42,391 nt of DNA from Acholeplasmatales bacterium. Its GTDB lineage: Bacteria > Bacillota_I > Bacilli_A > Acholeplasmatales > Anaeroplasmataceae. Shown one piece after another: positions 1,372 through 13,068 of this stretch. Position 1 is the stretch's first letter. Each line of letters starts with the position of its first letter. Position numbers and translations under genes: made by a program. The notes under the pieces were generated by a model. The model saw nothing but the letters and a program-made list of their open reading frames with translations, was not told the origin of the DNA and searched no databases. The stretch lies in NCBI GenBank assembly GCA_016288855.1, contig JAEELJ010000004.1, positions 1 to 42,391 of the forward strand, read 5' to 3'.

Positions 1372-1372
<1 letters not shown>
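1082..1372 (-). CDS. Small membrane protein, unknown
   Basis: A 96-residue protein with two predicted membrane helices (about residues 28-50 and 60-82), a charged N-terminus containing KPIEERIKVKKHL, and an acidic last few residues (NLEED). I do not recognise a family. Its ATG overlaps the trpS stop codon by one base (TAATG), so translation is probably coupled to trpS and expression would follow the Trp T-box. It is the last gene of that unit. It might be a small membrane protein that merely shares the trpS transcript. Confidence 0.75.
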
Positions 1373-2556
<1,184 letters not shown>

Positions 2557-3301: not shown

Positions 3302-5527
3302 ATGAAATTTAAAACAATTGCTTTAACTAGTGCAGCATCACTTGCTGTATTAGCATTAGCTTCTTGTGGAAAAGGTTCTAGTACAACTACAGGAACTGGT
3401 GTTACAACAACTACAGGAACTGGTGTTACAACAACAACAGGTTCTGATACAACAACTAGTACAAATGATTATACTTTAACAGTACCAGAAAGCTTTACAC
3501 CAGAAGCTTCTATGGATGTTTCTGACATCGATTTAGAAACTGCAACAGACGAACAGTTATATACTAAGTTCTGGGGCACATATGAACAGGAAGTTGAGGC
3601 TGCTGAAAGTGCAACATCAACTGCTGAAAGATATTATCATTATGCTAAGGCAGAAGCTTATATCTTAGACCAAGCTTTATATTTACCAATGACTACTGAA
3701 GGTGGTACATATGGTCTTACAAGAGCTGCATATCGTTCAGTTCCATATGCAAAGTGGGGTTTAACTAACGAAAGATTAAACAATATTGCAGTAGCAACTG
3801 ATATTGTTAAGCCAGCTGACCGTCAAACTTTAAAGGCTAAATGGCAAGCTGCAAACAATGCAACTAATGAAGGTGGTTATTCAACATGGTCTGATGGTAC
3901 TCATACATCATCATATAACCCTGTTCAAGAATTAACTAATTTAGGATATACAGTTAAGCGTTCATTCAAGGCTGCATTATCTGAATTCCCTCAGACATTT
4001 GACCCAAGTAATACATATAGATCAACTGATATCGATCATATTGCTAACCTATATGATACATTAATCGAATATGATAACGCTGGAAATATCGTTCCAGGTT
4101 TAGCTGAATCTTGGACAAGAAGCCAAGATGGTTTAACTTATACTTTCAACATCCGTCAAGGTGTTAAGTGGGTTGATTCAACAGGAGCTCAAAAGCAAGA
4201 TTTAACAGCAAATGACTTCGTATTTGGTATCAAGAAAGTTCTTGAAAATGCAACTACATCATATATGTATGCTCCTTTAGCTGGTTATGATCCAGTATTA
4301 GCAGATGCAGGTACATTACCAGTTGAAAACTTAGGTGTACGTGCTGTTGATGACTATACACTAGAATTCACTTTATCTGAAAGAGTTGATTATTTCTTAA
4401 CATATTTAACATATGTTTCATATATGCCATTAAATCAGGCTTATTATGAATCAACTGCAACAGTAACTGAAGGTGAAACTACATATGAATATGGTTCAAA
4501 TAAGGATAAGACTTTATATTGTGGACCATTCTATGTAACAGAATTAACTGATGCATCAGCATTCAAGTTAAGAAAGAACTCTAATTACTGGGATGCTTCT
4601 AATACAACTGTTGATGAAGTTATTTATACATTCGATGATTTCTCAAATCAAAAGGCTACATATGATGCATTCAAGGATGGTACATATGATTCAGTTGGCT
4701 TAAATACTGAACGTATGGCATTAGCTAAGGCTGATGGTTTAGATCAATTCAAGTATGTTACTGATACAACTGCTGGTACTTACTTTGGTGGTTTCAACCT
4801 TAACCGTAAGGCTTATGCAACTGAAAGTTATGAAAGCACAACAACATCTACTAAGAGTGATGATGCTAAGGCATTAACTAAGAGAGCTATGTTAAATACT
4901 AACTTCCGTCGTGCATTATTAACTGCAATCAATAAGGAACAATTTAATGCTGCAGTAGTTGGTGCAGATGTTGCATTATTCTCATTAAGAAATACATATG
5001 TTCCATATGACTATGTTGCATTACCTGCAGCAACTGCAGGCTATGAAGCTGGTACAGTATATGGTGATGTTGTATTAGGCGAATTCAATAAGTCAAGCTG
5101 GGGTCAGTATGTAACTGCATTAGCTGATGGCTACAATGCATTCTATTCAACTGATTTAGCACAAGCATTCATCAATAAGGCATTTGAAGAATTAGGCTTA
5201 AGTGATACAGATGTTATTGAAATTGATTATCCATATCAATCATACATCACTGTTTATACTACACGTGCTCAAGTATTAAAGGCAAGTGTTGAAAATGCAA
5301 CTGGTGGAAAGATTAAGATTAATCTTGTTGCATGTAATGATAAGTATGCATTCTACTATAGCAACTACTATGTAGATGAAGCTTCTCAATTAAATTACGA
5401 TATTGATATTTCATCTGGTTGGTTACCTGACTTCGGTGATCCATCAACATATATTAATACATTCTCAAGAAGCGGAGATATGGTTAGATTAAACGGTATC
5501 AATGCTCATTCAAAGAGTGAAGAATAA
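3302..5527 (+). CDS. oppA: Oligopeptide-binding lipoprotein, apparently circularly permuted
   Basis: Solute-binding protein (SBP_bac_5 type) that would capture peptides outside the cell for the opp permease encoded next. Residues 1-22 are a lipoprotein signal (LASC, lipidated C22), followed by a Thr/Gly linker (27-55). Residues about 75-190, from EQLYTKFWGTYEQE through YAKAEAYILDQALYLPMTT to LKAKWQAANNA, resemble the C-terminal part of OppA/AmiA proteins. The usual N-terminal start (FPQTFDPSNTY, then IVPGLAESWT, YTFNIRQGVKW) begins only near residue 215. The protein ends shortly after DFGDPSTYINTF (710-721), where the missing C-terminal segment would begin. At 741 residues it is somewhat longer than AmiA-type proteins. 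The family call is firm; the permutation is a reading of the motif order, with alignments recalled, not computed. Confidence 0.93.
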   Translation: MKFKTIALTSAASLAVLALASCGKGSSTTTGTGVTTTTGTGVTTTTGSDTTTSTNDYTLTVPESFTPEASMDVSDIDLETATDEQLYTKFWGTYEQEVEAAESATSTAERYYHYAKAEAYILDQALYLPMTTEGGTYGLTRAAYRSVPYAKWGLTNERLNNIAVATDIVKPADRQTLKAKWQAANNATNEGGYSTWSDGTHTSSYNPVQELTNLGYTVKRSFKAALSEFPQTFDPSNTYRSTDIDHIANLYDTLIEYDNAGNIVPGLAESWTRSQDGLTYTFNIRQGVKWVDSTGAQKQDLTANDFVFGIKKVLENATTSYMYAPLAGYDPVLADAGTLPVENLGVRAVDDYTLEFTLSERVDYFLTYLTYVSYMPLNQAYYESTATVTEGETTYEYGSNKDKTLYCGPFYVTELTDASAFKLRKNSNYWDASNTTVDEVIYTFDDFSNQKATYDAFKDGTYDSVGLNTERMALAKADGLDQFKYVTDTTAGTYFGGFNLNRKAYATESYESTTTSTKSDDAKALTKRAMLNTNFRRALLTAINKEQFNAAVVGADVALFSLRNTYVPYDYVALPAATAGYEAGTVYGDVVLGEFNKSSWGQYVTALADGYNAFYSTDLAQAFINKAFEELGLSDTDVIEIDYPYQSYITVYTTRAQVLKASVENATGGKIKINLVACNDKYAFYYSNYYVDEASQLNYDIDISSGWLPDFGDPSTYINTFSRSGDMVRLNGINAHSKSEE
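3383..3430 (+). repeat. 24-bp tandem repeat in the OppA linker
   Basis: Two identical 24-base units (3383-3406 and 3407-3430) followed by a degenerate third. They encode the Thr/Gly linker between the lipid anchor and the folded part. The in-frame unit length means copy-number changes would only lengthen or shorten the tether. Confidence 0.85.
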
Positions 5528-5542
5528 TAATATGTAAAAATC

Positions 5543-5577
5543 AGGGTAGATTTTTAAAAAAATCTACCCTTTTTTTC
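5543..5577 (+). terminator. Intrinsic terminator after oppA
   Basis: Near-perfect hairpin of up to 13 bp (5543-5555 with 5558-5570) followed by a run of T. It separates oppA from oppBCDF, which have their own promoter, so the binding protein and the transporter can be made in different amounts. Confidence 0.92.
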
Positions 5578-5595
5578 TTTTTGAGTCCGAAAAAA

Positions 5596-5621
5596 TACAA
5601 AATTTAAAAAATGATTTTGTA
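5596..5621. repeat. Inverted repeat upstream of the oppB promoter
   Basis: TACAAAAT (5596-5603) and ATTTTGTA (5614-5621) are perfect reverse complements 10 bp apart, ending 25 bp before the -35 box. The TACAA/TTGTA half-sites also occur in the palindrome upstream of oppA (3179-3191). A shared operator is possible but unproven. Confidence 0.45.
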
Positions 5622-5646
5622 TGATGTACAAAAAAATATTTTTTAT

Positions 5647-5675
5647 TTGAATTATCAATCGTTTTATATTATAAT
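5647..5675 (+). promoter_or_regulatory. Promoter of oppBCDF
   Basis: -35 TTGAAT (5647-5652), 17-bp spacer, -10 TATAAT (5670-5675). The predicted transcript starts near 5682 and has an 80-base leader containing a hairpin (5706-5746). Confidence 0.85.
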
Positions 5676-5705
5676 ATAAAAGCATATTTTATATATGGAA
5701 GTGGG

Positions 5706-5746
5706 AGACGAAGTTTTATTATTTTTTACTTCGTCTAAATTTTTTT
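5706..5746 (+). terminator. Leader hairpin with T-run, possible attenuator
   Basis: A perfect 9-bp stem (AGACGAAGT 5706-5714 with ACTTCGTCT 5728-5736) and a 13-base loop, followed by AAA and seven T residues, all between the oppB promoter and the oppB ribosome-binding site. It has the shape of a terminator inside the leader. I see no competing antiterminator or known riboswitch, so regulation is inferred. Confidence 0.55.
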
Positions 5747-5761
5747 GAAGAGGGGTTTAAT

Positions 5762-7366
5762 ATGGCAGGTTATATATTAAAAAGAATAGCCAGATCATTT
5801 TTATCCATTATTGTAGTTGTATTTATAATCATGTTATTAGTATTCCAGCTAATGAACAGAGATGCAATTTTCCAAAGTATGAATTTAAATAAGTACACAG
5901 GAAACGCAAGAACTAACTTTAAATACACTCAATGGGCTAAATTTGGTTACTTAGACAAGGTCACATATAGTGATTATGTCGTCGAATTAGTAAAAGATAA
6001 AATATCAAATCAAGCATGGGAATCATACAATTTAGATAATTCTAAATCATATGGTGATTATTATGAAGAATATTATTCATTATATTATACTGATTATTTC
6101 AATGAATTATATGATTCAAAGATGAGTGAAGAAACTCAAACTGTTATAGATTTTAAAGAAAAATATTCTTCAAGAGGATATACAATTATTGATTTAAAGT
6201 CTACAGGAAAAACTAATCCAGCAGTTTTATTTGCTTCAAAAGATATTAATATTTTTGTAAGATTATGGAGATTCTTTGCAGGCGTAATCGTTATAGATAC
6301 TCCAAATTATGCTCAGGTTACAGATACATATAGAGCTAAATATGGCGATATTGAAAGAAAAATATATTTTTCAACTGATTATAATGGCTTACCATGCATA
6401 ATGGGTTCTGGTACAAAGCATAGATATTTATTATATTTTGATAATGTTTATCCATTCGTACATCAAAACTTTATTACTTTAAATCTTGGATATCAATATG
6501 CTTCAGGCAATGATTTCTTTGAATATTTCACAGAAAATCAGGATCCAAGTAAAGAAGTATATCAAACTTTACCTGATGGAACAAAGGGATATTCATCTTA
6601 TAATTATCATGAAAGAACATTCTCTCAAAATCCATTAGAGTCTGATGTTGAAGTTTATGGTGATACATATACAAATGTTTCAACATATAAGGAACAATTA
6701 TCTAGATTAGGTTATTCATTTGTAATTGGTATTATTTCAACTATTTTAGTATACTTAATTGGTATTCCTCTAGGATTATTATTAGCATTAAAGAAGGATA
6801 AGATTGCTGATAAGATTGGTAATTTCTATATTATCTTCATTATGGCAGTTCCATCTTTAGCATATATTTATATTTTCTCATTCCTAGGACATGAATGGTT
6901 AAAATTACCAAATAGCTGGCCTACTGGTACTAAGCCTTTAATTTATGTTTTACCTATCATATCATTAGCTTTACCATCTATTGCGACAATGATGAAGTGG
7001 GTAAGAAGATATACAATCGACCAAATGACTGCAGATTATGTTAAGTTTGCAAGATCACAAGGCTTTAGTGAAGGTGAAATTTATAGAAAGCATATCTTAA
7101 AGAATGCTTTAATTCCAATTGTACAAGGTATTCCTGCATCAGTATTAGGTGCTTTAACAGGTGCTATCATTACTGAAGGTGTATATAAGGTTCCTGGTAT
7201 GGGTAAATTATTAGTTGATGCAATCAATAAGAGTGATAATGGTGTTATCGTTGGTATTTCATTCTTCTATGCATTATTATCAATTGTTTCATTAATCTTA
7301 GGTGACGTATTAATGTCAAAGGTTGACCCAAGAATTTCATTTGCGAGCGGAGGAGGAAGAAAGTAA
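5762..7366 (+). CDS. oppB: Oligopeptide ABC transporter permease OppB, enlarged
   Basis: Membrane subunit of the peptide importer. Residues 8-31 form the first helix after the family-typical start GYILKRIARSF. The core permease domain begins near residue 318 and carries the cytoplasmic coupling loop (DYVKFARSQGFSEGEIYRKHILKNALIP) and the final VDPRI tail. Between them lies an external segment of about 280 residues, rich in Tyr, Asp and Asn; in ordinary OppB (about 310 residues in all) this loop is short. Total length is 534. The loop could dock the unusual binding protein, but that is inference. A GAGGGG ribosome-binding site supports the ATG. First gene of the oppBCDF unit. Confidence 0.93.
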   Translation: MAGYILKRIARSFLSIIVVVFIIMLLVFQLMNRDAIFQSMNLNKYTGNARTNFKYTQWAKFGYLDKVTYSDYVVELVKDKISNQAWESYNLDNSKSYGDYYEEYYSLYYTDYFNELYDSKMSEETQTVIDFKEKYSSRGYTIIDLKSTGKTNPAVLFASKDINIFVRLWRFFAGVIVIDTPNYAQVTDTYRAKYGDIERKIYFSTDYNGLPCIMGSGTKHRYLLYFDNVYPFVHQNFITLNLGYQYASGNDFFEYFTENQDPSKEVYQTLPDGTKGYSSYNYHERTFSQNPLESDVEVYGDTYTNVSTYKEQLSRLGYSFVIGIISTILVYLIGIPLGLLLALKKDKIADKIGNFYIIFIMAVPSLAYIYIFSFLGHEWLKLPNSWPTGTKPLIYVLPIISLALPSIATMMKWVRRYTIDQMTADYVKFARSQGFSEGEIYRKHILKNALIPIVQGIPASVLGALTGAIITEGVYKVPGMGKLLVDAINKSDNGVIVGISFFYALLSIVSLILGDVLMSKVDPRISFASGGGRK

Positions 7367-7367
7367 T

Positions 7368-8390
7368 ATGGAAAATAATAATATTTTAAATAATGAAATC
7401 ATATCCGAAGCTGATGAAAATAAGGTTGAAGAAATTAATGAAGATGAATTATTTAAATTTGTAGAAGAAGATCCTGAAGCATCTGAAAAAATCACTGCTC
7501 CAAGATATTCTTACTGGAAATCTGTATTAAGAGTATTCTTCAGAAAAAAATCAAACTGGGTAGCATTAGGTATTTTAATAATAATGTTATTATTAACATA
7601 TATTTATGGTAGTACAGTAAAAACCCCTTTATCAGACTACACTATTAATCCTAATGTATTAGTAAGTGAGTATAAGAATTTAACTCCAAAGCAAGCTATT
7701 GGTGAATTTGGATTCAGCTTAAAATGGATCTTAGGTACTGGTGCTTATGGTGAATCTACATTACAACATATTTGGGCTGGTGCTAGAATTTCATTAACAT
7801 TAGCTGTTATTTGTGCAGCTATCAATATGACACTTGGTGTTGTTATTGGTGCTGTATGGGGATTCTCAAAAAAAGTAGATGTTGTTATGACAGAAGTTTA
7901 TAACATTATCGCAAATATTCCATATATTTTATTCGTTTCAGTATTTGTATTAGTATTAGGACCTGGCTTCTGGTCATTTGTTATTGCATTAACTGTAACT
8001 GGTTGGTTAGGTATTGCATATTTCATAAGAACACAGGTTTTAATTATTAGAGATAGAGAATATAACTTAGCTTCTAAGTGTTTAGGTACAGGATTATTTA
8101 AGTTAACTACTAAGAATATCTTACCTTATTTAACATCAGTTATTGTTACTATTCTTGCAACTGAAGTACCATCATATATTTCATATGAAGTATTCCTATC
8201 TTATTTAGGAATTGGTATGGATAGTAATACTCCATCATTAGGTAAACTAATTCAGGCAGCACAGTCAAGTATGACTATTTACCCAATTCAATTCTGGGGA
8301 CCAGTATTAGTTTCATCATTATTAACAATAATTTTATATGTTGTAGGACAGAATTTAGCAGATGCATCTGATCCTAGAACTCATATGTAG
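7368..8390 (+). CDS. oppC: Oligopeptide ABC transporter permease OppC
   Basis: Second membrane subunit of the peptide importer. The start is set at the ATG at 7368 (GGAGGAAG ribosome-binding site, one base after the oppB stop), giving 340 residues; an upstream in-frame start would overlap oppB. Residues 1-45 are an acidic cytoplasmic tail. The first helix (around 65-80) follows the SYWKSVLRVFFRKKSNWVAL stretch typical of OppC. Five more helices follow, with the coupling loop REYNLASKCLGTGLFKLTTKNILPY and the C-terminal DASDPRTHM. It is the least modified of the transporter subunits, slightly long because of the N-terminal tail. Confidence 0.93.
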   Translation: MENNNILNNEIISEADENKVEEINEDELFKFVEEDPEASEKITAPRYSYWKSVLRVFFRKKSNWVALGILIIMLLLTYIYGSTVKTPLSDYTINPNVLVSEYKNLTPKQAIGEFGFSLKWILGTGAYGESTLQHIWAGARISLTLAVICAAINMTLGVVIGAVWGFSKKVDVVMTEVYNIIANIPYILFVSVFVLVLGPGFWSFVIALTVTGWLGIAYFIRTQVLIIRDREYNLASKCLGTGLFKLTTKNILPYLTSVIVTILATEVPSYISYEVFLSYLGIGMDSNTPSLGKLIQAAQSSMTIYPIQFWGPVLVSSLLTIILYVVGQNLADASDPRTHM

Positions 8391-8403
8391 TAGAGGTGAT
8401 ATC

Positions 8404-10236
8404 ATGGAAGAAAGAAAAAAGATATTACAGCTATCAAAAGTAGAAGTTGAATTTAAGGTTAGAGGTCGTATTTTAACTGCAATTCGTGGTGTTGATTTAG
8501 ATATTTATGAAGGTGAATCAATTGCAATTGTAGGTGAATCAGGTTCAGGTAAATCTGTTTTAACTAAGACTTTCTCTGGTATGCTTGATTCAAATGGTTA
8601 TGTTTCTAATGGGTCAATCATTTATGATGATCCTGAATTATCAGAAACATATGGTAAAAAGACTGCTTTAAATCTTAAAATATATAATTCATTCATTAAC
8701 AAATTAAATGAATATTCAAAGTATGAATATGGTGTTAATGAGCATAAAGAAATAGTTAATTACAAAAAAGAAATTCAAGCAAAAGTTTCTGCATCTATTG
8801 AGGAAGAAGAAGCTTATAAAAAGAAAATTAACGATTTAGAATTTGATCGTGTTGAAAAATTCAATTATAAGCAAACTCTAGATTCTAAGAAGGATGCTAA
8901 TGAAATCGAAAAGATTAAATTAGAAATTAAAGAAATATATGCAAAAGAAAAGGAACTATCTTTAGAATTTAAAAAGTTAGTTTCTGAAAGAGCTAATGCA
9001 TATAAGTTAAATCAAGAAGAAGTTTTAAAAGATAAGCAAAAATTACAAGAATTAAATGAAAAATTCGAAAAAGCAATTAATGTTTCTATTTCTGACGAAC
9101 AAAAGAAACGTAATGAATTAATTGCAAAAGAATTAATTCTTTCAATCGCAAGATATCCATTCAGCAAGAAATTCATGGCATATAGAGGCTTATTAAAGGC
9201 TTATAAGAATGCTATGATTGAAGGTTTAGATATTTATAAAGAAGAAGTTAGAGATGAGATTTGTGGTTCTATAGCATTTAGAGTTAAATTCTTAGATGAA
9301 ACTAATGAAGAGGATTGCAAAGAAAAAGAAACACCAAAGTGGCATGGTTATTGTAGACTAGATTTAGCTAAATTCAAGCTAAATTCAGACTGGAACCAAA
9401 TCCGTGGTGCTAAGATTGCAACAATCTTCCAGGACCCAATGACTTCCTTAAACCCAATTATTAAAATCGGTAAGCAAATTACAGATTGTATCTTAAAGCA
9501 TCAAGATTTAACTGTTACTCAAGCACGTCATAAGGCTATTAAGCTAATGAAACTTGTAGGTATTCCTAATCCTGAAAAGAGATTTGATGATTATCCATTC
9601 CAATATTCTGGTGGTATGAGACAAAGAATTGTTATCGCAATTGCTTTATCATGTGAACCAAGAATATTAATTTGTGATGAACCTACAACAGCTCTAGACG
9701 TTACAATTCAAGCACAAATTATTAGATTAATTAAGGACTTACAACGTAAGCTTGGTTATACAATTGTATTCATCACTCACGATTTAGGTGTTGTTGCAAA
9801 TGTTGCTGACCGTGTTGCAGTTTTATATGCAGGACAGGTTGTTGAAGTTGGTAAGGTTGAAGAAGTATTCTATGACCCACGTCATCCATATACTTGGTCA
9901 TTATTATCATCATTACCTCAGTTATCAACAAGAGGAGAAGAATTATTCTCTATTACAGGTACACCACCATCTTTATATAATAAGATTAAGGGTGATCCTT
10001 TTGCTCCAAGAAACCCATATAGAATGGCAATTGATTACGTTAAAGAACCACCAATGTTCAAGGTTTCTGATACACACTATGCTAAAACATGGTTATTAGA
10101 TCCTCGTGCACCAAAGGTTGAAAAACCACAAATTATTCAAGATATCCATAATAAGCTATCTAATACAGTATATGGTAAAACTATGGATGAAATTGAAAAT
10201 GGTAACCTAGATTCAGTAGAAAGTGAGGCAAAATAA
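8404..10236 (+). CDS. oppD: Oligopeptide ABC transporter ATPase OppD with large insertion
   Basis: Cytoplasmic ATPase that powers peptide import with OppF. Start placed at 8404 (AGAGGTGAT site), 610 residues. Walker A is GESGSGKS (44-51), the Q-loop [11 protein letters not shown] (Q343), the signature YSGGMRQR, Walker [12 protein letters not shown], the H-loop FITHD, and the OppD C-terminal peptide-transporter domain ([13 protein letters not shown], then FAPRNPY). Walker A and the Q-loop are about 290 residues apart; around 50 is usual. The extra 240 or so residues (about 80-325) are Lys/Glu-rich and probably coiled coil. The C-terminal Cys cluster seen in many OppD proteins is absent. All ATPase motifs are intact, so it should be active. 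Confidence 0.93.
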
Positions 10237-10237
10237 T

Positions 10238-11893
10238 ATGTCAGATAAAGAAAAAGATATTTTAGAACCTCAAACTGAAAATGAAACAAATGAAGAAGTA
10301 AAAGAAGTAAGTACTACTACTGAAAATGAGGAGCAAACTAAGGAAGAACAAAAATTCTATAAAGAAAACTTTGATTTTGCTCAAGATGATGAAGTTTTTA
10401 AATTACAATTAAAGAATCGTTTTGCTGAAGATAAGGCTAAAATTGCTGAATTAAAAGCAAAATATCAAGAAGAAATTCAAGGTAATATTTCTGATGTGAC
10501 AAAAGGAAGAAACCTTAAGATTGCTAAATTAATTTTATTATCTACAATTCCTAATGGAATTAAAGCAAATAAGATTGCAAAAAATATCATTAAAGATTTA
10601 AAGTCTTTAATGTCTACTGGTAGTATCTTAGATGATTCAAATGTTAAGCTTTCTATTGAAGATTATTGCCCATATTATCAATTAACTGATAATGAAAAGC
10701 TAGCTGCAAAAGATTCTATAGGCAATGTAATTGAAATAGATTCTAATGAATCATATGCTAAAATTATCGCAAGCTATTCTGGTGTAGATGTTACAAAGGT
10801 TAAGCTATCAAGTGATATTAAGGTTAGTGATGTATTAGCTGAATATCATAATTTAATTAATGAAGCATCTAAATTAGAATTAGGCTCTGAAACATTTAAA
10901 AAGATCCAATATTATAAGAAGGATTTAAACCGTACTATTCCATTACAAGGACCAATTGATCCAACAAATGGAAAAGAAATAATTGTATCTTTAAAGAATG
11001 TAGATATAACATTTGGTAGTTTTAAAGCAGTAAAAGATGCATCATTTAATATCTATAAGGGTGAAACATTTGCTCTAGTAGGTGAATCAGGCTCTGGTAA
11101 AACAACTATTGGACGTGCAATTATTAGAATTAATCCAATTTCTAATGGTGAAATTCGTTATAAGGGTATGAAAATATCTGGTAAGATTTCACATAAGGCT
11201 GACCGCGAAGTTGTAAGAAATATTCAAATGATATTCCAAGATCCTGCTGCATCATTAAATGAACGTGCAACAATTGAATATATTGTTTCAGAAGGTTTAT
11301 CAAATTTCCATCTTTATAATTCTGAAAAAGAAAGAATTCATAAGGTTGAAAATATAATAAAAGAAGTAGGTTTATTACCTGAACATTTAACTCGTTATCC
11401 ACATGAATTCTCAGGTGGACAGCGTCAACGTGTTGGTATCGCAAGATCAATTGTAATGGAACCTGAATTCGTTATTGCAGATGAACCAATCTCAGCACTA
11501 GATGTATCTATTCGTGCACAAGTATTAAACTTATTAAAGAAGTTCCAGCATAATTTAGGTATTACATACCTATTTATTGCTCACGACTTATCAATCGTTA
11601 GATTTATTTCAGATAGAATTGCAGTTATTTACTTAGGTAATATTGTTGAAATTGCAGAGACAGAAGAATTATTCTTACATCCAATGCATCCATATACTAA
11701 GTCTTTATTATCAGCAATTCCAGTACCAGATCCTGAAATTGAAAAGAATAAGAAATTATTCGTTTATGACCCATCAGTTCATCACTATGAAGAAAATAAG
11801 CCTAGTCTAAGAGATATTGGACATGGACATTTCGTATTCTGTAATGATGAAGAATTTGATAGTTATAAAGCAATTAGAAATAAAACTAATTAA
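10238..11893 (+). CDS. oppF: Oligopeptide ABC transporter ATPase OppF with N-terminal extension
   Basis: Partner ATPase of OppD. The ATG at 10238 follows the oppD stop by one base, giving 551 residues. The ABC domain starts only near residue 249 ([18 protein letters not shown]), with Walker A GESGSGKT (282-289), Q-loop [11 protein letters not shown], signature [10 protein letters not shown], Walker [12 protein letters not shown] and H-loop IAHD. The first 245 residues have no counterpart in ordinary OppF (about 320 residues): an acidic tail, then a Lys/Glu-rich and helical part. Together with the OppD insertion this suggests an extra cytoplasmic assembly on the transporter, which is inference. 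Confidence 0.93.
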
Positions 11894-11904: not shown

Positions 11905-13068
11905 ATGGCAGTAGTTTATACAAAAAATGAAAAGAGAAGCATAATTATTCGTGCTGGTCTTTTAGGCGTATTACTTATTGCCATTGTAATCGTCATAGTT
12001 TTACTAGTAAATAGCTTTAGTATTAAAGAAGGATTTAATGAAATTTCTTCCACATATGTTAATAATTATTCTATTTCTAGTGAACTAAATCTTAAATATT
12101 ATTTAAAAAAGGATTCTAATTCAATAGCCTCAAACAAGGATAAGCTTGAAAAATTGTATGCTGAATCCTTAGATACTATATATGAATTAATTGATTCAAA
12201 GCAAGAATATTCAAATAAAAATAATATATACTATATTAATAATCATCCAAATGAAACAATAGAAATAGATAAAACATTATATGATGTATTAAAAAACATA
12301 TATGATGCTGATAGTAGATTTCTATTATATGGTTCATTATATCAATATTGGGATTCTTTGTATTTTTCATTAGAAGAAAAACAAAGAGATAACCTAGACC
12401 CAAGCTATAATTTAGAATATAAGAATTTAATTAATGAATTTGTAACAAATTCTTTAAATTATATTTCAATTGATTTTTTAGAGGATAATAAAATAATATT
12501 AAATGTTTCTGATGAATATAATTCTATATATCAAGATGAATACATTGAATATATTGGACTTGGTTATCTTACTAATATGATAATAATGGATTATATTAAA
12601 GCATGCTTTATTGATAATGGTTATAATGATGGATATATTATTTCTAAGGATGGATATTTATTAAGCTTTGGTGGAGAGCATTTATCCTCATATCCATTAG
12701 TAACTGATATTTATAATACTTACTATGCTAAAGTAGAAATATCAAATGGTAATGCTTATATTGGCTCATATGATTATTCAATTAATGATTCATATAGATA
12801 TTATGAAACAAAATATAATGAAACAAAGATTAAAAGAAATCAATATATAAATAATGATACTGGTTATCAATATGATTTAGGTAATTCCTTTTATTATAAG
12901 GAAGGCTATTTATTTGATACATATAAAGAAATGATTAAATTAGTAAATGGTGATAGCTTTGATTTATCTTATATAAAGTTTAATAACGATGAGTTAAATC
13001 CTAAAGTTACTACTAATGTTAAGACTGGTATTACATTTAGAAATGGAATAGAGGTATCTTATGAGTAA
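11905..13068 (+). CDS. Membrane-anchored protein, possibly a degenerate ApbE-like fold
   Basis: A 387-residue protein with one N-terminal helix (about 15-36) and the rest probably outside the cell. I cannot assign it firmly. Parts recall ApbE (FAD:protein FMN transferase): an early helical stretch with an INNHPNETIEIDKTLYDVLKNIYDAD run, and IEYIGLGYLTNMIIMDYIKACFIDNGYNDGYIISKDGYLLSFGGE, which resembles the ApbE 'dLG..aKGy...L...G....i..GG' block. The key Lys and GG context are only partly kept, so activity is doubtful. It sits 11 bases behind oppF with its own AGAGGTGAT site, so it is probably co-transcribed with the transporter. Confidence 0.7.
   Translation: MAVVYTKNEKRSIIIRAGLLGVLLIAIVIVIVLLVNSFSIKEGFNEISSTYVNNYSISSELNLKYYLKKDSNSIASNKDKLEKLYAESLDTIYELIDSKQEYSNKNNIYYINNHPNETIEIDKTLYDVLKNIYDADSRFLLYGSLYQYWDSLYFSLEEKQRDNLDPSYNLEYKNLINEFVTNSLNYISIDFLEDNKIILNVSDEYNSIYQDEYIEYIGLGYLTNMIIMDYIKACFIDNGYNDGYIISKDGYLLSFGGEHLSSYPLVTDIYNTYYAKVEISNGNAYIGSYDYSINDSYRYYETKYNETKIKRNQYINNDTGYQYDLGNSFYYKEGYLFDTYKEMIKLVNGDSFDLSYIKFNNDELNPKVTTNVKTGITFRNGIEVSYE

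Follow-up and report, generated by a model that had tools for sequence, protein, structure and literature searches.

The window, a stretch of 42,391 nucleotides from contig JAEELJ010000004.1 of an Acholeplasmatales bacterium, encodes at 3302..5527 (forward strand) an OppA-type lipoprotein of 741 amino acids, with an ATG start and a lipobox (Cys22); the frame lies where a preliminary description of the sequence had placed it. The locus raises the question of whether a peptide-binding protein of an ABC importer can carry the two parts of its chain in exchanged order. This oppA is the sole SBP_bac_5 gene in its 1.77-Mb genome, and its product departs from the typical domain order of that family, I-II-III-I: the segment that corresponds to the C-terminal end is instead found at residues 83-184. 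Since this segment precedes the core, we regard the protein as a permuted variant and not as a typical SBP_bac_5 member. The parts of the gene and of its operon are collected in Table 1.

Table 1. Features of the permuted oppA and its neighbours (positions in the window; residues of the 741-aa protein)
Feature	Position	Strand	Remarks
trpS, conserved upstream neighbour	1372..2367	-	Locus marker shared by permuted and normal-order species
Signal peptide with lipobox	3302..3367	+	Residues 1-22; lipidated Cys22 predicted from sequence; Cys22 invariant in 14 permuted relatives
Thr/Gly-rich low-complexity tether	3368..3547	+	Residues 23-82; from sequence
Moved segment, old C-terminal end	3548..3853	+	Residues 83-184; remainder of domain III, then the hinge strand and the C-terminal portion of domain I; matches AliC 523-617 / AliB 517-610
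Gly135, equivalent of AmiA Gly590	3704..3706	+	By alignment; invariant in alignment A1 (14 permuted relatives); role from PMC11192437
New linker, old C-terminus to old N-terminus	3854..3946	+	Residues 185-215; coincides with best rotation point
Core, old N-terminal to middle part	3947..5500	+	Residues 216-733; domains I, II and most of III; AliC 12-506; SBP_bac_5 E 3.5e-48
Trp707..Asp710, putative clamp of peptide N-terminus (AmiA W504/D507)	5420..5431	+	Nearly invariant in A1; role from PMC11192437
New C-terminus and stop	5477..5527	+	Residues 726-741, corresponding to AmiA specificity regions R1/R2 by ungapped offset from W707=W504
Hairpin with T run downstream of oppA, resembling an intrinsic terminator	5544..5577	+	Sequence read directly
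oppB, AmiC-type permease, ~250-aa extracellular part	5762..7366	+	Pfam BPD_transp_1; full-length match to Ami-type operons, Lactobacillales-like
oppC permease, core probably from ~7368	7323..8390	+	OppC_N and BPD_transp_1
oppD ATPase, ~235-aa insert in nucleotide-binding domain	8404..10236	+	
oppF ATPase with N-terminal extension	10238..11893	+	

A phmmer search of all solved structures returned AliC, AliB, AmiA and AliD as the best solved relatives, and it returned them in two stretches: query residues 220-733 align with AliC (8qlh) 12-506 and query residues 94-185 with AliC 523-617 (independent E 3e-4), the corresponding pairs for AliB being 219-730 with 6-498 and 93-185 with 517-610. The two parts of the chain thus correspond by homology to two parts of one normal protein, with the order reversed. 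We also built a profile from residues 83-184 of the 14-member permuted family (A1); had this segment failed to align with the C-terminal region of binding proteins, the permutation proposed in the preliminary description would have been in difficulty. It does align: the profile matches 31 of 31 normal-order relatives, at 0-16 residues from their C-terminus, with 26-74 bits, against 7.9 bits for the best of 620 shuffles and 2.5 bits for the best reversed sequence. Furthermore, rotation of the window protein raised its alignment score by 57-117 against six normal-order relatives, the best start lying at ~186-236; when the same scan was run against a permuted relative, the unrotated form scored best. 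Bearing in mind that 17 genomes share the reversed order and that the tree described below gathers it on a single branch, circular permutation, i.e., two parts of one normal gene in exchanged order, is supported by the sequence evidence.

Several details of the preliminary description were also borne out: the core was expected to begin near residue 215 (found at ~216), the chain to end about 20 residues past a family motif (20 after DPSTYINTF, 8 past the last core residue), and a terminator to follow directly (Table 1). Its identification of residues 75-190 as the C-terminal segment was right as to what the segment is, and too generous as to limits, the homologous part being ~83-184. Simple truncation, which it had argued against, is ruled out because the missing end is found at the front. 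The swap is invisible to Pfam SBP_bac_5 (PF00496) alone: that model matches residues 262-726 (165 bits; curated cut-off 32.4) and ends before the moved segment. Pfam and NCBIfam by themselves do not reveal it, bar one weak NCBIfam OppA match that pairs the front segment with profile positions 779-881 of 896 (E 3e-4). Domain models of this kind hide permuted cases.

Where the chain was cut can be read against published structures. In AliD, lobe 1 consists of domain I (residues 29-63, 191-296 and 583-617) and domain II, and lobe 2 of domain III (297-582) (PMC11192437); OppA of S. typhimurium follows the same domain plan (PMC6305025). When our alignment is set against these limits, the cut falls around AliD 525-542, which would place it inside lobe 2, at the specificity pocket P2 that regions R1/R2 form in AmiA (PMC11192437). 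The path of the aligned chain is lobe 1-lobe 2-lobe 1 in the normal protein; in the permuted one it begins with a short stretch of lobe 2, takes in all of lobe 1 and ends in lobe 2. The number of lobe crossings would still be two, with lobe 1 now continuous and lobe 2 discontinuous, so that the termini and the lipid anchor would shift from lobe 1 to lobe 2. In the permuted proteins the linker measures 19-37 aa in 16 of 16 relatives, and the chain ends 1-8 residues past the core (26 in the divergent f23 protein L216). Helix α19, which packs on lobe 1 in the Ali proteins, is just partly recognisable in the linker. The lipidated cysteine is separated from the moved segment by 15-61 aa in 15 of the 16 relatives and by 306 aa in L216 (genome G549), where a BspA-type leucine-rich repeat domain (LRR_5, E 2e-12) is inserted between lipobox and segment.

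Does the moved segment still serve a binding site? In AmiA, W504 and D507 clamp the N-terminus of the peptide and the backbone of G590 contacts its C-terminus (PMC11192437). The equivalents of the first two, W707 and D710, are nearly invariant in A1, and that of the third, G135, is invariant; the moved segment keeps its conserved P, GG and AxAEA positions, the peptide-contact glycine among them. With dN/dS values of 0.15-0.23 in three close pairs (0.23-0.36 in the core), the moved segment is under purifying selection. These conservation, selection and position data fit a working peptide binder whose binding site the moved segment would complete. An AlphaFold model of the window protein, computed from an alignment of just 11 rows, was poor, with a pLDDT of 57 and a pTM of 0.47; that the segment completes the fold within its own molecule is what homology, conservation and selection together suggest.

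The same order was sought in related genomes and is present in 17. Within the genus of the window it occurs in 14 of 27 genomes, as 13 full-length genes plus one (G006) cut by a contig end; in 160 genomes covering the whole order, none was found outside that genus. A class-wide sample (395 genomes) yielded permuted proteins in one further family, f23, and among the 90 genomes of f23's order three carry them. A phylum-level sample of 344 genomes, largely of the same class, held no additional cases, and a search of viral contigs gave no useful relative. The normal order was seen in 31 relatives, some of them in the same genus and at the same trpS-oppABCDF locus; we take it to be ancestral because the solved SBP_bac_5 relatives show it. 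In a midpoint-rooted tree of the rotated and aligned parts (47 proteins, 612 columns), all 16 permuted rows lie on one side of a single branch with support of 100/100. The f23 rows are nested inside the permuted clade of the genus (100/99), which points to lateral transfer.

These observations bear on three other accounts of the front segment. That the swapped order might be an artefact of assembly or annotation, or the debris of a decaying pseudogene, is a thought invited by the draft state of the source genome (88 contigs); we rejected it on the strength of the 17 genomes and the dN/dS values, and with long contigs, intact frames, lipobox, operon context and identities of 34-51% in the genus, its probability is negligible. 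The segment could also be a fused additional domain, no longer in its former role, with the core acting as a C-terminally truncated binder, and the poor AlphaFold model is at least compatible with this. We consider it very improbable: in the permuted proteins whose 3' end is intact (16 of 16) the segment is in front, with no remnant of it at the back, its motif and contact positions are kept, its dN/dS is no higher than that of the core, and a protein lacking it would have an incomplete lobe 2 and hinge strand. Finally, the segment might complete the fold of a neighbouring molecule, in a domain-swapped dimer or chain. AliC, the closest solved relative, did crystallise as a 3D domain-swapped dimer (PMC11192437), and the variable length of the linker would suit such an exchange; on the other hand, the AliC swap uses a different hinge (residues 290-294) and the sequence holds nothing that requires a dimer, so we regard this account as improbable too.

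Turning to the transporter as a whole, the features of an Ami-type importer that we found are an AmiA/Ali-like binding protein, an AmiC-like permease with a large ectodomain, and a Trp and Asp clamp after β20; OppB (534 aa) aligns over its full length with the ~500-aa OppB of Ami-type operons. By these homologies the window operon is predicted to be an Ami-type oligopeptide ABC importer. The pneumococcal Ami permease, whose AliC, AliB, AliD and AmiA proteins (SBP_bac_5, cluster C) are homologous to the window OppA over both core and moved segment, shares with it the W..D clamp and the AmiC-type OppB with its large extracellular domain. In contrast to the window protein, the pneumococcal proteins carry the segment at the C-terminus, followed by helix α19, and have their anchor on lobe 1.

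The normal-order operons of close relatives are of another kind. Those of G018 and G024 (same genus) and of G078, G032 and G270 (other genera or families) also adjoin trpS, and in G018, G024 and G023 of the genus and G078 and G032 of sister genera we see a homologous binding protein in the same operon order, next to trpS where the contig shows it; unlike in the window, the chain order is normal, OppB is shorter and the core is ~25-29% identical. Open frames of OppB at this locus measure 381-415 aa in normal-order operons versus 515-563 aa in permuted ones, and the normal-order OppB and OppC are 34-41% identical to those of the window; these operons are a different Opp subtype. The permuted operon is nearest to Ami-type operons of other families, with which it has the ~500-aa AmiC-type OppB in common; these families would appear to be Lactobacillales. 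We rejected a normal-order OppA of the genus as the direct ancestor: the permuted core scores 355-433 bits against Lactobacillales-like Ami-type proteins versus 205-265 bits, and the permuted and normal forms in the genus also belong to different operon subtypes. The idea that OppB gained its extracellular domain together with the permutation was likewise discarded, given that normal-order Ami-type operons have the same ~500-aa OppB.

A tree of rpoB interleaves permuted and normal genomes, pairing normal G024 with permuted G025 (100/98) and normal G018 with permuted G019 (100/99); both pairs are also recovered in a small trpS tree. We rejected the view that chain order was simply inherited vertically, which would need at least six changes on the rpoB tree. 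The interleaving suggests that two opp operon subtypes have been exchanged at one locus, or that both were present and then differentially lost; none of the genomes examined carries both. Among close species (the window, L142, L143, L152 and L158), the subtypes alternate at the trpS locus as if they were swapped cassettes.

We think it highly probable that the window gene is the oppA of an Ami-type importer, that it underwent a single circular permutation in the ancestor of a clade that lies within the genus or donated to it, and that its product has the fold and function of a normal binder. In this scheme the cut would lie in the variable loop after strand β20 of lobe 2 (domain III), at P2 regions R1/R2; a linker of ~20-37 aa would connect the old N-terminus with the old C-terminus (end of domain I, helix α19 region), and the lipoprotein signal would have been retained at the new front. 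The folded protein would have the usual two-lobed shape, with the moved segment back at its former place, and would act as an ordinary Venus-flytrap peptide binder feeding OppBCDF. The gene would probably have been duplicated in tandem and fused in frame, and would then have lost its outer parts, which is the standard route of natural circular permutation; an origin by duplication with loss of outer parts is plausible here. In G216 (L248, ~6300-6750), an intact normal-order oppA is directly preceded by a C-terminal oppA piece with a broken frame (residues 507-656, E 1e-8): this decayed second piece indicates that tandem oppA copies occur in the family, and is the one observation supporting a duplication origin.

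Candidatus Fermentithermobacillaceae, an unrelated bacterial family, has two further SBP_bac_5 families in permuted order. Two OppA-like loci (L032/L033) align, in translated frame, residues 77-223 with B. subtilis OppA 364-511 (E 9e-29) and residues 242-609 with 17-358; an opp operon lies downstream, and near full-length relatives occur in at least 8 of 14 genomes of the family. DppA/HbpA-like loci (L255-L257) align residues 82-228 with HbpA 359-507 (E 3e-13) and 272-559 with 44-343. As in the window OppA, a lipoprotein signal is followed by the old C-terminal part and then by the old N-terminal part; unlike in the window OppA, the cut precedes a strand of domain III (B. subtilis OppA 358/364) and ~147 aa have moved rather than ~100, and the proteins belong to other subfamilies. 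Judged by distance from the conserved Trp and by the published domain limits, this cut, too, would lie in domain III. An AlphaFold model of L032 from a nine-row alignment was likewise poor (pLDDT 65, pTM 0.52). Because the cut differs from that of the window, at least two origins are needed, and permutation seems to have arisen separately, at another cut point, in this family.

Such recurrence invites the thought that permutation was selected, for placing the lipid anchor on lobe 2 instead of lobe 1 or for reshaping pocket P2: the window family and the Fermentithermobacillaceae families, with their differing cuts, all have their termini in domain III/lobe 2, and the new C-terminus of the window protein is at R1/R2. 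Two cut sites are a small sample, however, and about half of the protein is lobe 2; the Ami model has lobe 2 in contact with AmiD, and lobe 1 with AmiC ECD2, so that a shift of the anchor brings no obvious advantage, and neutral fixation following duplication would suffice. Selection of this kind we hold to be possible, if rather unlikely. The broader proposal, that permutation is both recurrent and selected, with at least two events shifting anchor and chain ends to lobe 2, opening the P2 loop and altering docking or the peptides accepted, is likewise doubtful in our estimate.

OppA-type proteins are among the best-studied binding proteins. In the literature searched, we found no natural permutation of OppA, SBP_bac_5 or cluster C proteins. 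The one naturally permuted ABC-importer binding protein that we did find there is TpMglB-2 (Tp0684; 'Type Ic / Cluster Bc') of Treponema pallidum, a sugar binder that has relatives among Gram-positive gut bacteria (PMC4990184). Like the window OppA, it is a permuted, lipid-anchored binding protein of an ABC importer, and in the window OppA, too, both parts are homologous to a normal-order family, swapped, and conserved across species. Unlike the window OppA, TpMglB-2 is a sugar binder of cluster B, of another fold class, whose old N-terminal strands now stand at the C-terminus and which gained a fourth lobe crossing; in the window OppA it is the C-terminal end that has changed place, to the front, and the crossings are probably unchanged. 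The window OppA does not belong to Cluster Bc, all of its significant matches being SBP_bac_5 proteins. Sister species of one genus carry either the permuted or the normal form at the same locus, so that a fold can be compared directly before and after its rearrangement, and one can test whether chain order and the anchor-bearing lobe matter for a Venus-flytrap importer.

We also noted peculiarities elsewhere in these operons. The ~235-aa insert of OppD (residues ~82-315 in the window protein) lies between the Walker A part and the Q-loop of the ABC ATPase domain; it is present in most permuted operons of the genus and in both f23 operons checked (frames of 583-643 aa), and absent from permuted G020 (361 aa) and, with frames of 354-398 aa, from 13 of 13 normal-order operons checked. 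Behind oppF, most permuted operons of both the genus and f23 have a 387-aa protein that matches no Pfam family (window 11905-13068); it was not found in the normal-order operons. In L154 (G010), OppD and OppF lie within one open frame of 1335 aa (5390-9295), possibly an ATPase fusion.
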